DNA of 22,883 bases from a virus, in the IMG/VR virus record IMGVR_UViG_3300043438_000284, positions 1-22,883 of that record; one strand, written 5' to 3'. Positions 9,989 through 20,809 of this stretch are shown piece by piece. Position numbers and translations under genes: made by a program. Below the pieces are notes generated by a model. It searched no databases. It was not told the origin of the DNA and saw only the letters and a list, made by a program, of their open reading frames with translations. Each line of letters opens with the position of its first letter. The stretch's first letter is position 1.

Positions 9989-11392
9989 ATTAAAAAATTT
10001 TTATATTCAGCAATAGTCTTAGCTATATTTTCTTTATCATTACTTTGGCCAACTACTGCTAAAGCATCTACAACTGCAGTGTGCGACACCTATCAAGTCA
10101 ATGGTGGTGATCAAGCATTCTTGATGAATTTAAATACCCCACTAGAATTTGGTGGCACTGTATATAATGGTAACGTTTACATAAGTCCAAAAGGAACTAT
10201 AACTTTTGGTCAGGGTGATTATACTTTTTGGGATTATCCAGCAACACCATCCATATCAATTGGCTCATGGGACTATCACGCTTTTGCAAATGACGCAAGC
10301 TCTCAGTGGGATCCAGGATGGGGTATTGGCAAAGATTTATACGTTAAGTATGGATCAACAGCAACTTCTATTTGCGTTGACTGGAAAGTAATGGTTTGGG
10401 GTCAGTCTTCTGGAGACCCAGTCTATATTAGAATGTTAGCACAGGTAGATCCAGTAAACTATACTTGGACTCCAACCTATCAGGTAAGCTCTAATGCACC
10501 AGGAGGAGCTAGATATGGTGTTCGTTATACTCAGGGTGGTCAGGTATTTCCTTTAGAGATTCAGACAATAACTGAGCCACCAACACCAGAACCTACGATA
10601 GAGCCTACCCCAGAACCCACTCCAGAAGAGCCCACGCCTAGTCCTACGCCTACACCAGAGCCTTCCCCAGAAGAACCTACCCCAAGCCCCTCACCAACTC
10701 CAGAGCCGTCTCCAGAGCCCACGCCTGAGCCTAGTCCAACTCCCTCTCCAGTCGAACCTGTTGAACCTGTCGTGCCACCAACCAACCCAGTAGACCCAAC
10801 ACCAGAACCTTCCCTGGAGCCTGAGCCAGTAGTCCCGCCAGAAATACAGCCAGAGGAACCAGAGCAAGCAGTAACGCCAATTGAAGAACCTGAAGAATCT
10901 GTAGAACCTTCACCCGAATTAACTCCTTCTATTATAGAACCAGAAGAAGAGTCTATCACATCTGCGGAAGAATTACCAGTAGATATTTCTTCAGAAGAAC
11001 TTCTGAACATAGACCTAGATCAAATTGAAGCAACGGATCTTTCTGAGGATCAGGTAGAAGCACTTGTTGAAGCAGCCCTGGAAGTGTTTGAAACAGCAGA
11101 ACCAGGATCTGACGAATACGAACAAGCTCTTGACGCTCTATTCCTAGCAGCTGAAGCAGACGACATCGTATTAGATGAGGCCCTAGCAGCCATCCCGCTT
11201 CTTGGAGACGTTCTTGGTGGAGCCACAGAACTTGTTAACTTTCTTGGAAATGCGGGGGCAGACATGAGTCCAGAAGTTAGAGAAGACTCAGAAAAAGTAG
11301 TAGTTACAGCAATTGTTGCAGTGCAAGCAGCACTATCAGCAGTTTCTATAAGCGGTATAGCAACAACAGTTAATTTAAGAAATGGAGCATAA
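9989..11392 (+). CDS. Secreted proline-rich surface-type protein with an ATT start codon
   Basis: The first canonical in-frame start is GTG 10079, but the frame is open from 9974 and encodes a textbook signal peptide upstream. Reading from ATT 9989 gives (M)KKFLYSAIVLAIFSLSLLW, then PTTAKA with cleavage expected after A26. AAGGAG at 9975-9980 lies eight bases before the ATT, and no ATG, GTG or TTG exists in between. The 467-residue product has a beta-rich domain with many aromatics (about 27-190), a Pro/Glu/Thr/Ser linker (about 196-310) like wall-spanning spacers of Gram-positive surface proteins, an acidic helical region, and a hydrophobic segment near 437-461. The last could anchor it in the membrane. 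No lipobox or LPXTG motif is seen. It is probably exported by the host Sec system; the role (surface alteration, exclusion, adhesion) is unknown. Confidence 0.75.
   Translation: MKKFLYSAIVLAIFSLSLLWPTTAKASTTAVCDTYQVNGGDQAFLMNLNTPLEFGGTVYNGNVYISPKGTITFGQGDYTFWDYPATPSISIGSWDYHAFANDASSQWDPGWGIGKDLYVKYGSTATSICVDWKVMVWGQSSGDPVYIRMLAQVDPVNYTWTPTYQVSSNAPGGARYGVRYTQGGQVFPLEIQTITEPPTPEPTIEPTPEPTPEEPTPSPTPTPEPSPEEPTPSPSPTPEPSPEPTPEPSPTPSPVEPVEPVVPPTNPVDPTPEPSLEPEPVVPPEIQPEEPEQAVTPIEEPEESVEPSPELTPSIIEPEEESITSAEELPVDISSEELLNIDLDQIEATDLSEDQVEALVEAALEVFETAEPGSDEYEQALDALFLAAEADDIVLDEALAAIPLLGDVLGGATELVNFLGNAGADMSPEVREDSEKVVVTAIVAVQAALSAVSISGIATTVNLRNGA
10573..10830 (+). repeat. Degenerate Pro/Thr/Glu-coding repeat tract
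   Basis: Irregular repeats of codons for PTPEPT, PSPEEP and PTPSP units in the secreted protein. The bases vary at third positions, so selection seems to act on the peptide rather than the DNA. The same tract produces the long glycine/serine-rich shadow reading frame on the minus strand. Confidence 0.75.
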
Positions 11393-11581: not shown

Positions 11582-11860
11582 ATGGGAGGTAAAATGAAGC
11601 AACCAGCAGTAACGGGTGGTTTGGATACCATCATAAACATCTTTTGGAGAATTATAGCAGTATTTGCAGCATCAGGACTAACGGTCTTAGGTGCTGGAGC
11701 AGTCGTTGGTGTTGAGCTATGGGATGCTGTCTTTATGGCAGGTATTCTAGGCGTAGCCACAGTGATTGAAAAACTAGCTAGATCTTTCCTAGAAGATGGA
11801 AAGCTTACTATGTCAGAGATTAATGAAGCCTTTGCTAAGGTAGACAAAAACTCTAAGTAA
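11582..11860 (+). CDS. Holin-like membrane protein
   Basis: 92 residues from ATG 11582, where AAGGAGG at 11565-11571 lies ten bases upstream; ATG 11594 with GGAGG four bases before it is the alternative and would drop four residues. One or two membrane spans cover residues 17-65 (IINIFWRIIAVFAASGLTVL, then a Gly/Ala/Val-rich segment and a second hydrophobic stretch). A soluble acidic tail follows. The layout recalls the r1t-type holins of actinophages. Together with the 61-residue gene before it, it could form a holin/antiholin pair. It ends seven bases before a strong promoter. Confidence 0.6.
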   Translation: MGGKMKQPAVTGGLDTIINIFWRIIAVFAASGLTVLGAGAVVGVELWDAVFMAGILGVATVIEKLARSFLEDGKLTMSEINEAFAKVDKNSK

Positions 11861-11867
11861 GCAATAG

Positions 11868-11896
11868 TTGACAGTCCCCTCTGGGTAGTGTATAAT
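11868..11896 (+). promoter_or_regulatory. Perfect consensus sigma-70/SigA promoter
   Basis: TTGACA at 11868-11873, a 17-base spacer and TATAAT at 11891-11896 match the consensus at all 12 positions. This is the best promoter in the window. Transcription should start near 11903. It also rules out ATG 11895 as the start of the next gene, since that codon lies within the -10. Confidence 0.9.
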
Positions 11897-11920
11897 GAAG
11901 ATACACCATTTTAGAGGGGA
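11875..11920 (+). repeat. Nested inverted repeats spanning promoter and ribosome site
   Basis: TCCCCTCT (11875-11882) and AGAGGGGA (11913-11920) are exact inverted copies. Inside them GTGTAT (11888-11893) and ATACAC (11901-11906) are a second exact pair. The outer left arm is in the promoter spacer, the outer right arm is the ribosome binding site, and the inner left arm covers the first half of the -10. In a transcript reading through from upstream, the two stems could stack and bury the ribosome site. Confidence 0.7.
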
Positions 11921-11927
11921 TTTTGTC

Positions 11928-12458
11928 ATGACCTGTATAGCTGCCATTAAAGCCAATGGCAAAGTATATATGGCTGGAGATCGTGGGGCATCAACTGATG
12001 ACACCATCATGCATATTTCTAAGCCAAAAGTTAAAGCATTTGGTCCATATGTAATAGGATATGGAGGAACTATGGAAGGTCAAAGATTACAATATAGCTT
12101 TGATCCTCCAAAACCACATCCAGATGAAGACCTAGATGTTTTTATGCACACAACATTTCTAAAATATCTTAAAGATTTTTATGAAGAATGGTGGGTTGAA
12201 ACATCAAAAGATGCAGAACTAGAAATGTTAATTTCAATTAAAGACAAGCTGTATGAGCATACCTCTTCAGACATGTCTATGAATGAGTTTTCTTCTAACT
12301 TCTTATCTATTGGATCTGGTTCATCCTTTGCTATGGGATATTTATCTGCAACTGTTTCTACTAAGATGACCCCAGAAAAAATGGTAGAAGGTGCAGTAAA
12401 AACTGCAATTAAATTTTCACCAACTTGCTCTGGCACCGTTGACATTCTATCCACTTAG
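11928..12458 (+). CDS. Proteasome/HslV-like Ntn hydrolase
   Basis: From ATG 11928 (GAGGGGA at 11914-11920) the product is 176 residues and begins Met-Thr-Cys-Ile-Ala-Ala-Ile. Removing the Met leaves Thr1, as in HslV and proteasome beta subunits. Counting from that Thr, D17 (AGDRG), K33 and S129 (within GSGS) fall exactly at the positions of the known catalytic and supporting residues. The mature length of 175 is that of HslV. D166 of archaeal proteasomes is not conserved (Cys here). Such enzymes cut peptide bonds inside ring-shaped chambers, in HslV fed by the HslU ATPase; no ATPase partner is seen nearby. Related phage proteins could be capsid-maturation or host-protein proteases, or inactive ring proteins. 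The promoter directly upstream suggests separate, strong expression. Confidence 0.8.
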   Translation: MTCIAAIKANGKVYMAGDRGASTDDTIMHISKPKVKAFGPYVIGYGGTMEGQRLQYSFDPPKPHPDEDLDVFMHTTFLKYLKDFYEEWWVETSKDAELEMLISIKDKLYEHTSSDMSMNEFSSNFLSIGSGSSFAMGYLSATVSTKMTPEKMVEGAVKTAIKFSPTCSGTVDILST

Positions 12459-12473
12459 GAGTACAATATACCT

Positions 12474-12734
12474 ATGAATAAAAAAACATTTGACGAATGG
12501 CTACAAGAAGGACTCTCTCTAGGGTTTTGTGGTCCAGCAATTTGTTATCCACATGACGGATTGCCATTAACTGAACAAGAAGATGAGCAATTTGGTGAGG
12601 GTGAAGATCCTTGCATACACATTATAAGACTCTACGAAGACTTGGAAACAAAGAAAGCAGTAGAAGAAAATCATTCTCCTTCTGTGTGGAGAGCAACCAA
12701 TAGTGGTTTTGACTTAACAATAAAGAAAGACTAA
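12474..12734 (+). CDS. Conserved-type small phage protein with three cysteines
   Basis: 86 acidic residues: an FDEWLQEG start, then GFCGPAICYPHDG, GEDPCIHIIRLYED and, near the end, SPSVWR. The three cysteines with a histidine in YPHDG could bind a metal. The pattern resembles a family of small actinophage proteins of unknown function that I know only as hypothetical. GGAG at 12457-12460 lies rather far (13 bases) upstream. It is followed within two bases by a very short basic gene. Confidence 0.7.
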   Translation: MNKKTFDEWLQEGLSLGFCGPAICYPHDGLPLTEQEDEQFGEGEDPCIHIIRLYEDLETKKAVEENHSPSVWRATNSGFDLTIKKD

Positions 12735-12849: not shown

Positions 12850-12921
12850 TGATCCATAGCTCAACGGCAGAGCAGAGAGCTGTTAACTCTAAGGTTCCTG
12901 GTTCGAATCCAGGTGGGTCAG
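12850..12921 (+). tRNA. tRNA-Asn (anticodon GTT)
   Basis: Cloverleaf: acceptor TGATCCA (12850-12856) with TGGGTCA (12914-12920, one T-G pair), D stem GCTC/GAGC, anticodon loop CTGTTAA with GTT at 12882-12884, T stem CCTGG/CCAGG with loop TTCGAAT, and discriminator G. Position 27-43 is a G-A mismatch. CCA is not encoded. Confidence 0.93.
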
Positions 12922-12926
12922 CTAAT

Positions 12927-12975
12927 GGTGTGGTCCATACCACTCTCAAGGGTAGAAGAGATAAAAATGGACACC
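12927..12975 (+). repeat. Hairpin-forming spacer between tRNA-Asn and tRNA-Gly
   Basis: GGTGT + TCCAT (12927-12931 and 12934-12938, two-base bulge between) pairs with ATGGACACC (12967-12975). The enclosed loop is 28 bases. The structure starts 5 bases after one tRNA and ends one base before the next, so it fills the spacer. Confidence 0.5.
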
Positions 12976-12976
12976 A

Positions 12977-13047
12977 GTGACTATCGCATAATGGTAGTGT
13001 GTAACCTTGCCAAGGTTAATGTGCGAGTTCAATTCTCGCTAGTCACT
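12977..13047 (+). tRNA. tRNA-Gly (anticodon GCC)
   Basis: Acceptor GTGACTA (12977-12983) with TAGTCAC (13040-13046) pairs perfectly. Anticodon stem TAACC/GGTTA with loop TTGCCAA (GCC at 13009-13011), T stem GCGAG/CTCGC with loop TTCAATT, discriminator T. The D stem contains two G-T pairs. CCA is not encoded. Confidence 0.93.
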
Positions 13048-13049
13048 CT

Positions 13050-13097
13050 GAGAGTATCCTAGCATGACTCATAAGAACCATTTCACTGGATGCTCTC
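13050..13097 (+). repeat. Hairpin-forming spacer between tRNA-Gly and tRNA-Asp
   Basis: GAGAGTATCC (13050-13059) pairs with GGATGCTCTC (13088-13097) over 10 bp with a single T-G wobble, again enclosing exactly 28 bases. It occupies the spacer from 2 bases after tRNA-Gly to 4 bases before tRNA-Asp. It is too short for a tRNA and lacks a T arm. Confidence 0.55.
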
Positions 13098-13101
13098 TTT
13101 A

Positions 13102-13175
13102 GGCTCTGTAGCTCAGTTGGTTAGAGCACTACCCTGTCACGGTAGGGGTCGCCAGTTCAAGTCTGGTCAGAGTCG
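13102..13175 (+). tRNA. tRNA-Asp (anticodon GTC)
   Basis: Acceptor GGCTCTG (13102-13108) with CAGAGTC (13168-13174, one G-T pair), D stem GCTC/GAGC, anticodon stem CTACC/GGTAG with loop CTGTCAC (GTC at 13136-13138), T stem GCCAG/CTGGT with loop TTCAAGT, discriminator G. CCA is not encoded. Confidence 0.94.
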
Positions 13176-13193
13176 CAAGGAAAGAGGTATTCT

Positions 13194-13937
13194 ATGGGTA
13201 AGCAAGAGATAATACTTAACAGGTTGTTGCCTGGCCCTCCAGTGTTTCCAGTAGTTCCATTAACAGCAAAAAGAAACTGGATGGATGACTCAAGGGATAA
13301 ATTTGCTTATAAGTGTATACCATTAAATATTGCTAATCAGTATGGCTATACAGTTTTGTGTCCAGCAGACTTCACTTTAGACTGGTATGGAGGGGTAGAA
13401 GAAAAAGATGTTGACTTCCAGGTAACATCTGAAGAAGAATATTTTAAAGATCACCTTCATAGTTATTTTGGTGGTGGAACTTTTACTATACATCTAGATT
13501 TTATTATAAGAACTCCAGAAGGTTTTTCAACTTACATTCGTGGAGTTCCTAATGAAACAAAGCAGGGACTTAAACCGTTAGATGCCATTGTTGAAACTGA
13601 TTGGCTATCCTATACTTTTACCTACAACTTTCTTCTTACAGAACCAGGCAGCTATAGCTTTAAAAAGGGTGAGCCCCTGTTTGTATTTTTTCCAATTGAA
13701 AGAGCAACTGTAGAAAAGTTTAAACTAAAAGAATCTAGAATAGAAGAAGACACAGAACTGTCAACAGACTTTGAAGACTATCATCGTAAAAGAATAAAAG
13801 CAATTTCGGTGCCAATAACAAAGCCAGTGTTTCAAAACTTTTATAGAAATGGGACAAAAGCATCTGGAGAAAAAGTCAGTATAAAAAACCACATTACAAA
13901 CTTGATTTTTGGTGGTAAGCGTGGTAAGATTAACTAA
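13194..13937 (+). CDS. DUF6065-type protein
   Basis: 247 residues lying between tRNA-Asp and tRNA-Thr. The order FAYKCIPLNIANQYGY, then FTLDWYGG, SYFGGGTFTIHL, the IRTPEGF segment, GVPNETKQGLKPLDAIVETDW and FTYNFLL matches the family I know as DUF6065, which occurs in bacteria and some phages and has no assigned activity. It is predicted to be beta-rich, cytosolic, and without a signal peptide. GGAAAGAGG at 13179-13187 is a strong ribosome site. Its insertion within the tRNA cluster suggests a cargo gene that entered or moved with the tRNAs. No catalytic residues can be named with confidence. Confidence 0.7.
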   Translation: MGKQEIILNRLLPGPPVFPVVPLTAKRNWMDDSRDKFAYKCIPLNIANQYGYTVLCPADFTLDWYGGVEEKDVDFQVTSEEEYFKDHLHSYFGGGTFTIHLDFIIRTPEGFSTYIRGVPNETKQGLKPLDAIVETDWLSYTFTYNFLLTEPGSYSFKKGEPLFVFFPIERATVEKFKLKESRIEEDTELSTDFEDYHRKRIKAISVPITKPVFQNFYRNGTKASGEKVSIKNHITNLIFGGKRGKIN

Positions 13938-13941
13938 TAAT

Positions 13942-14014
13942 GCCTCTATAGCTCATCTGGTAGAGCGACGCACTTGTAATGCGTAGGTGACGGGTTCAAG
14001 TCCTGTTGGAGGCT
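13942..14014 (+). tRNA. tRNA-Thr (anticodon TGT)
   Basis: Acceptor GCCTCTA (13942-13948) with TGGAGGC (14007-14013, one T-G pair), anticodon stem ACGCA/TGCGT with loop CTTGTAA (TGT at 13975-13977), T stem ACGGG/CCTGT with loop TTCAAGT, discriminator T. It begins four bases after the DUF6065-type stop. CCA is not encoded. Confidence 0.94.
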
Positions 14015-14021
14015 CTGATTA

Positions 14022-18312: not shown

Positions 18313-18708
18313 ATGGAACTTTTTTTATTTGGGGTATTGACAACCCTAACCTTAATTGCTATAATTAGACAGTACAATAAAGCTAACTACCCTAAAAAGG
18401 ATAAGAAGGCTCTTGTTCGTCAAAGCTCTATGTTTTTATTAATTAAAAACTTTTTGCCAGACTTAATGTTTGATTCAAGACACAGATACAGTCAAGCAAT
18501 AATATACGAACAAGATAAGACGTTTGACTACATAGAGATGCCAGATAAAAAGGCATACTGGCTAGACAAAAATAAAATTTATTATGCAGAAGTAATAGAT
18601 GGAAAGTTTGATCCAGGTAATAAAAAATTAACTGAGATGAAAAATTTATCTGAAGAAGAAGTAAGCAAGTTGTTATACATTTACAATAGTTTAAAGAGTG
18701 GGTTTTAA
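18313..18708 (+). CDS. Membrane-anchored hypothetical protein
   Basis: 131 residues: one N-terminal membrane helix (ELFLFGVLTTLTLIAIIR, residues 2-19), a basic stretch (KKDKKALVRQ) indicating an inside tail, then a soluble domain rich in Lys, Tyr and Asp. No motif is recognised. AGAGGTCGG at 18297-18305 gives a good ribosome site eight or so bases before the ATG. It probably belongs to the same transcript as the double-Tudor gene. No function can be offered. Confidence 0.7.
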   Translation: MELFLFGVLTTLTLIAIIRQYNKANYPKKDKKALVRQSSMFLLIKNFLPDLMFDSRHRYSQAIIYEQDKTFDYIEMPDKKAYWLDKNKIYYAEVIDGKFDPGNKKLTEMKNLSEEEVSKLLYIYNSLKSGF

Positions 18709-19308: not shown

Positions 19309-19593
19309 ATGCAAAACCAATCATGGAAAGACAAGGCTGCATGTCTTGGAGAAGAAACAAATGATTACTTTGATAATTATGAAGAAGATCTTGAACTAAG
19401 GCCTATAGTAGATAAAGTTTGTAGGGAGTGTCCAGTGAGAAAAATGTGTTTTGCTGCAGGGGTTTCTGGAAAAGAAACTGGAGTTTGGGGTGGAGTTTAT
19501 TTTGAACAAGGAGACATATCTAGGGAATTTAATAGACATAAAGCCAAAGAGGGCTGGGCAAAAACCTGGCAAGCACTAACAACGGATAGCTAA
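19309..19593 (+). CDS. WhiB-family iron-sulfur regulator
   Basis: 94 residues with the full WhiB set: C12, C38xxC41xxxxxC47, and GVWGG at 58-62. The cysteines hold a 4Fe-4S cluster; the glycine/tryptophan turn contacts sigma factor SigA. The family is found only in Actinobacteria and their phages, so this is the strongest host signal in the window. Phage WhiB proteins can rewire host transcription or block host WhiB2 function. The C-terminal tail (HKAKEGWAK) is basic but lacks a clear DNA-binding AT-hook. It may act on the many SigA-type promoters of this phage; that is inference. Confidence 0.95.
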   Translation: MQNQSWKDKAACLGEETNDYFDNYEEDLELRPIVDKVCRECPVRKMCFAAGVSGKETGVWGGVYFEQGDISREFNRHKAKEGWAKTWQALTTDS

Positions 19594-20747: not shown

Positions 20748-20764
20748 ACCTTCTATAAGGATTG

Positions 20765-20789
20765 GGCGGGTCAGAGATGGCCCGCCTTT
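20765..20789 (+). terminator. Rho-independent terminator
   Basis: GGCGGGTC (20765-20772) pairs with GGCCCGCC (20779-20786) over 8 bp with one T-G wobble, a six-base loop, and then TTT. This is the only strongly GC-rich stem of this kind in the window; the T tract is short. It ends the long plus-strand operon after the holin-like gene. Confidence 0.8.
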
Positions 20790-20791
20790 CC

Positions 20792-20799
20792 TGTATAAT
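20792..20799 (+). promoter_or_regulatory. -10 promoter element right after the terminator
   Basis: TGTATAAT contains a perfect TATAAT at 20794-20799; the TG abuts it without the usual spacer base. The -35 position falls in the terminator loop and is poor. The predicted start (about 20806) is only four bases before ATG 20810. Confidence 0.5.
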
Positions 20800-20809
20800 G
20801 GGAAGTAGT

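Follow-up and report, generated by a model that had tools for sequence, protein, structure and literature searches.

In the viral DNA analysed here (the window, by which we mean the whole stretch of 22,883 nucleotides), the gene for a proteasome/HslV-like Ntn hydrolase is preceded by an element in which a promoter, a hairpin and a ribosome site are merged. Our main reading, to which we assign a probability of roughly 0.75, is that this element controls a slot for exchangeable cargo genes: it would block expression from transcripts that read through from upstream, whilst RNA made from its own promoter would be translated. We hold it about as probable as its opposite that a single hairpin composite of 60 bases acts simultaneously as terminator of the upstream unit, as spacer of the next promoter and as the next ribosome site, and thus forms a two-layer insulator, effective at transcription and at translation, which stayed fixed in the phage group while an HslV-like peptidase, an M78-like metallopeptidase, a subtilase and a methyltransferase passed through the slot.

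Architecture and predicted folding of the element

All features of the element lie on the plus strand. It follows a gene for a membrane/holin-like protein of about 92 residues (11582..11860; phrog_443 holin, 0.0036; phrog_26427, 7e-27), the end of which marks the slot in relatives. The -35 hexamer TTGACA (11868..11873) and the -10 hexamer TATAAT (11891..11896) are separated by 17 bases, and the resulting promoter (11868-11896) matches at 12/12 positions, as no other does within 8 kb; the whole window contains two such perfect promoters, the second being at 18337. The left arm of the stem, GTCCCCTCTGGG (11874..11885), lies within the promoter spacer, and the right arm, TTTAGAGGGGAT (11910..11921), contains the ribosome site GAGGGG (11914-11919), 8 nt 5' of the ATG (11928-11930). 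The cores of the two arms, TCCCCTCT (11875-11882) and AGAGGGGA (11913-11920), are exact reverse complements, and as RNA the outer stem comprises 12 pairs including G.U (11874-11885 with 11910-11921). A nested stem, in which GTGTAT (11888..11893) pairs with ATACAC (11901..11906), is retained in most, not all, relatives. Both this second stem and the perfect promoter with one arm in its spacer and the other over the ribosome site had been described in the first-pass annotation, and the description proved exact. Judged from the position of the -10 hexamer, transcription would start near 11903, and any start 3' of this hexamer would exclude the left arm. The stem is followed on its 3' side by a U-rich tract, TTTTGTC (11921..11927), which is T-rich in nearly all relatives and has the character of a terminator-like tail whilst also forming the spacer between Shine-Dalgarno sequence and start codon. 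Exact 8-bp GC-rich inverted repeats occur twice in the window against an expectation of 1.07; the repeat alone is therefore not rare, and what makes it significant is where it lies and that relatives conserve it.

The cargo gene itself (11928..12458) encodes a protein of 176 residues that matches the family profile (Pfam Proteasome, 3.7e-7; phrog_1040 peptidase HslV family, 2.4e-19). Its sequence starts with MTC, placing a threonine at the N-terminus after the methionine, and shows the T1/D17/K33 pattern, with D17 replaced by E in some relatives; we take the numbering of these active-site residues to be that of HslV. A small conserved gene with an HDG motif lies 3' of the cargo (12474..12734; 47% identity to an ORF of locus L302); in phages without cargo it comes immediately after the element. 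Across the end of the Ntn gene (12439-12467), and at homologous sites in relatives, we also observed a consensus-like TTGACA-17-TACAAT/TATAAT arrangement with the AGGAG of the next gene between the hexamers; transcription from it would begin close to the ATG of that gene or beyond it, and this is probably a coding coincidence or a leaderless start.

Predicted folding differs strongly between the two kinds of transcript. RNA spanning 11875-11920 folds with -20.8 kcal/mol (z -4.3; 0/200 shuffles), whereas RNA of 11903-11945 reaches only -3.6 kcal/mol and is less structured than its shuffles. Among the 37 genes of the window, the start region of the Ntn gene has the highest opening cost, 19.0 kcal/mol with the upstream RNA included versus 4.5 kcal/mol without it. 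The same comparison of long and promoter RNA agrees with masking over 45 distinct elements, in which freeing the ribosome site is predicted to cost on average 18.6 kcal/mol when the RNA reads through and 3.5 kcal/mol when it comes from the promoter. As is characteristic of masking of the T4 gene e type, the stem joins sequence at or upstream of the promoter start to the ribosome site: the left arm lies 5' of the -10 hexamer in every element scored, so that by position a transcript from the near promoter would be without the 5' strand. Of 22 other perfect promoters examined in this phage group, none showed a comparable hairpin over a start site, and a scan with the pattern GTGTATAMT...RGAGGGG...ATG, serving as negative control, returned mainly unrelated chance sites without a stem.

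A slot with exchangeable cargo

The same 176-residue protein is encoded by 16 viral contigs. Their distinct upstream regions retain the -35 hexamer, the spacer, the -10 hexamer and both arms, and the sequence preceding these is unalignable. The distance from CCCCTC to GAGGGG is 32-35 nt, and predicted folds range from -26 to -33 kcal/mol for read-through RNA and from -0.7 to -2.5 kcal/mol for promoter RNA. Within this set the stem is 99% paired, the variation consisting of exchanges amongst G.U, G-C and A-U, and no pair differs from the commonest one on both of its sides. Shuffles are uninformative here because the left arm is nearly invariant; covariation in the Ntn set is thus weak and on its own could not exclude a DNA site, its strength coming from wider relatives, and for this reason the search was based on the slot. 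Relatives were not found in bacterial genomes, and named phages yielded distant Ntn relatives only. Three loci that had seemed to be without the element (L010, L011 and L056) were rejected as exceptions, as in these the element precedes a methyltransferase-like gene inserted ahead of the Ntn gene.

Slots were retrieved using the upstream holin-like gene as anchor with no requirement for the hairpin, leading to 80 slots fetched and 64 loci analysed. The element, consisting of a TTGACA-like -35 hexamer, an arm in the spacer, a -10 hexamer and a complementary arm, is present in 54 of the 64; among these 54, the spacer is 17 bases in 49, the -35 is TTGACA in 45 and the -10 is TATAAT or TATACT in 49. 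It begins 0-29 bases 3' of the upstream stop codon and the upstream genes are co-directional, which makes read-through plausible, though no more than that. The ten other slots comprise a decayed copy (L280), a locus in which hairpin and promoter are separate (L283), two in which a different gene comes next (L295, L300) and six more distant ones (the L338-L344 group). In further contigs whose neighbouring genes are the same, DNA-pattern scans located the element before an M78/ImmA-like metallopeptidase gene (HELxH; Pfam, 3e-7 to 4e-5). Altogether, the genes behind the element encode the Ntn hydrolase, the metallopeptidase, a methyltransferase-like protein, a Cys-rich protein (L284) and a subtilase (L308; Pfam, 5e-7), and in some slots the small HDG gene, which elsewhere follows the cargo, comes directly behind it. 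Because the cargo differs in this way, we assign the element to the slot and not to the Ntn hydrolase. The original proposal, that unmasking of the ribosome site depends on the promoter, is supported in its physics, given the covariation and the predicted folding of the 45 elements, and was incomplete in its scope.

In many contigs (L132, L148, L281, L308, L293) the cargo is often a peptidase, and the folds are unrelated (Ntn/HslV-like, M78-like metallopeptidase or subtilase); this suggests that the slot has a common role, which might be to remove proteins of the host. The region before the slot, in relatives as in the window (10079-11392), encodes a protein that looks secreted and contains a long stretch of Pro/Glu/Thr repeats, and four tRNA genes (Asn, Gly, Asp, Thr; 12850-14015) lie just 3' of the slot in the window. 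The only relative of the holin-like protein in the phage collection, from DSL-LC01 (51% identity), has a different neighbourhood, with a gene for 100 residues directly overlapped by the next one.

Predicted masking, probable termination and pairing of the arms

Beyond masking, the element exhibits a layer that resembles a terminator. The spacer between Shine-Dalgarno sequence and start codon is 72% T in the elements versus 26% T (53% A) in other genes of the window (p 9e-8), and it lies directly 3' of a GC-rich stem on the sense strand, which is the form of an intrinsic terminator, albeit a borderline one in the window, with a short tract of 4 to 6 U. With a terminator score we obtained positive values in 35 of the 45 elements as initially delimited, positive values for elements of the Ntn type if the stem is cut at the end of pairing, and a borderline value for the window (0 to +8). 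The role in termination is deduced from this U-rich tail together with plain hairpins found where the merged form is absent: L339, L340, L342 and L344 have plain terminator-like hairpins behind the holin-like gene, in L283 a hairpin with TTTTATTTTG is followed by a separate promoter, and L280 has lost the -35 hexamer and the start codon but retains the hairpin with TTTTTT. The hairpin is likewise retained in L290, L291, L305 and L335 though a start codon is absent behind the arm, so that L280, L283, L305 and L335 all exhibit terminator-like hairpins without a merged start. From these sequences we infer that the hairpin descends from a terminator, and it probably still terminates transcription from upstream.

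These observations bear on two narrower readings. According to the first, hiding of the ribosome site in read-through RNA is the sole effect of the hairpin, on the model of T4 gene e, and the U-rich spacer is incidental. The start codon stands immediately 3' of the right arm in 48 of the 54 elements, opening costs of the two transcripts differ by about 15 kcal/mol, and in T4 the same logic has a 100-fold effect on gene e (PMC3014915); however, a T-rich spacer occurs in essentially all elements where other genes are A-rich, and hairpins with a U tract persist with no start behind the arm (L280, L290, L305, L335) or with the promoter separate (L283), and we regard masking alone as less likely than not. 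The first-pass annotation had proposed masking: the ribosome site does lie in the 3' arm, but in view of the U-rich tract termination may matter equally. The second reading reverses the emphasis, in that the hairpin would end the upstream operon and the promoter and ribosome site inside it would merely save space. The U-rich tail, the plain hairpins at the same place in L339-L344, the separated arrangement of L283 and the survival of hairpin and TTTTTT in L280 all suit this explanation, which we nevertheless regard as rather doubtful: the ribosome site is in the 3' arm in almost all elements, even though a position after the tail is possible (L335), and hiding of this site physically follows for any read-through RNA that escapes termination. 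Less probable again is that the hairpin is mainly a site of RNase III processing or a stabiliser of the mRNA 3' end of the upstream transcript. Such a function also requires both arms in one RNA and would fit the 17-19 nearly continuous pairs reached in zincin-type slots, but it leaves unexplained both the U tract and the overlap of the stem with promoter spacer and ribosome site.

That the arms have paired as RNA through evolution, and do not match by chance, is apparent from the diverged elements. In a structure-free MAFFT alignment of 32 of these, a stem of 14 pairs gave a covariation score of 0.460 versus 0.273 (sd 0.020) in shuffles (0/500), with 60 double-changed cells versus 26.5 shuffled and changes on both sides in 11 of the 14 pairs; sliding the partner reduced the score to 0.23 or less, and RNAalifold recovered the same stem unaided. 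Co-variation of the arms in relatives, which had been named as the key check on the original proposal, is therefore strongly borne out. When arms were swapped amongst 29 representatives of less than 85% identity, an element's own arms gave -21.7 kcal/mol versus -14.2 kcal/mol for swapped ones (0/20,000 permutations), and with 12 representatives of less than 75% identity the result was still 0/20,000; these permutation figures overstate significance, as nearby phages are not independent, yet the effect survives thinning of the representatives. One locus, L329, retains the promoter with arms that pair poorly.

The pairing also argues against a DNA operator, at which a dimeric repressor would bind two half-sites and so control the promoter, an alternative raised in the first-pass annotation and now very unlikely. 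There is an exact dyad around the -10 region, and in close relatives the left arm is near-invariant. Against this, the half-sites diverge widely with pairing kept, leaving no conserved half-site; 127 of the 852 hairpin pairs, and about one fifth of the stem pairs, are G.U and break a DNA dyad; the distance between the arms varies, as the CCCCTC-GAGGGG spacing of 32-35 nt illustrates; and the window holds no third copy of an arm. A chance inverted repeat, although about one is expected per window, is refuted by conservation and covariation of the stem in dozens of phages and has a negligible probability.

Proposed mechanism and relation to known systems

In the mechanism that we propose for the merged element, RNA polymerase arriving from upstream would copy both arms, and the read-through RNA would form a hairpin of 12 to 19 pairs with the Shine-Dalgarno sequence in its 3' arm, which on the basis of the predicted folds would keep ribosomes from the cargo start. 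The hairpin and the adjoining U-rich tract would probably terminate a share of upstream transcription, and RNA extending past the hairpin would be untranslatable. RNA from the sigma-70-type promoter would start 3' of the left arm, form neither terminator nor block and be translated. The prediction is thus that the cargo's own promoter is the sole source of its expression, and that transcripts leaking in from upstream contribute none.

The closest precedents, which concern the translational half, are genes e (lysozyme), soc, 49 and I-TevI of T4, where the ribosome site is hidden in early read-through RNA but accessible in RNA from the late promoter, with the 100-fold effect mentioned above for e (PMC3014915). 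As in e, soc and 49, the 5' strand of the stem lies in the promoter region, the near-promoter transcript is without it and the ribosome site is in the 3' arm. In those genes the near promoter is the T4 late promoter TATAAATA, whereas here a full host-type -35/-10 promoter carries the arm in its 17-base spacer; a U-rich tail 3' of the stem and attachment to a slot with changing genes are further differences. With its consensus sigma-70/sigma-A promoter the element would work like gene e and yet stand outside the T4 set. The timing known for T4 gene e, in which read-through is early and the promoter late, cannot be carried over, given a promoter of the host sigma-A/sigma-70 type.

Leaders of the homing endonuclease genes I-TevI, I-TevII, I-TevIII and SegB of T4 and mobE of Aeh1 are similar, in that an accessory gene follows a hairpin by which the ribosome site is hidden in read-through RNA but in no other (PMC2988022). 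They differ in that the endonucleases reside in or near introns and use middle or late promoters, and there is no homology; a shared terminator-like tail is not reported in the text consulted (PMC2988022). In cluster K mycobacteriophages, which are likewise actinobacterial phages, the SAS/ESAS repeats lie at start codons and have an inverted repeat on their upstream side; the arms of ESAS are found at many genes and, in the view of their authors, give no support for RNA pairing (PMC3203893). We rejected ESAS as an explanation, since here the pairing covaries, the window has no second copy of an arm and other perfect promoters do not have it.

In the transposons IS10 and IS50, transcripts that enter from the surroundings form a fold that conceals the start of the transposase gene, which the element's own transcript does not do; the arms there stem from the ends of a mobile element, whereas the present locus has variable cargo and no mobile element. 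Morons of temperate phages are accessory genes with their own promoter and terminator, and the present cargo resembles them in being an accessory gene of a variable slot with transcription of its own. It differs in that the terminator-like hairpin, the promoter and the ribosome site overlap in one 60-base unit. In the part of the open-access literature covered, we found no description of such an overlapping composite in phages. The masking logic is known from few genes, of the T4 type. Our reading would add a large and separate phage group, probably actinobacterial, in which dozens of natural variants supply covariation evidence and the logic is tied to a gene slot with changing content. Should the terminator function prove true as well, the element would be a compact, naturally occurring cassette for insulated expression, whose merged, separated and decayed variants offer ready comparisons of termination and masking.

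The host is probably actinobacterial, as the nearest named relatives of the terminase are from Streptomyces phages and an ORF at 19309 appears WhiB-like by eye. Upstream of distant Ntn genes (L067-L072, L077, L089) we observed strong hairpins of about 13 pairs, CCAGGCGCTTAGG...CCTAGGCGCTTGG, situated 15-25 bases before the start and perfect in L089; their loops carry a -10-like TATAGT or TACAGT (TAGGATAC or TATAGT in, e.g., L067 and L089), and this is a different arrangement, perhaps another promoter in a hairpin. The second perfect TTGACA/TATAAT promoter of the window, at 18337, lies just inside an ORF (18313-18708). Finally, the most stable hairpin of the window (20763-20800) consists of GGGCGGGTC...GGCCCGCC followed by TTTCCTGTATAAT, with a -10-like TATAAT directly after it, and is likely a terminator.
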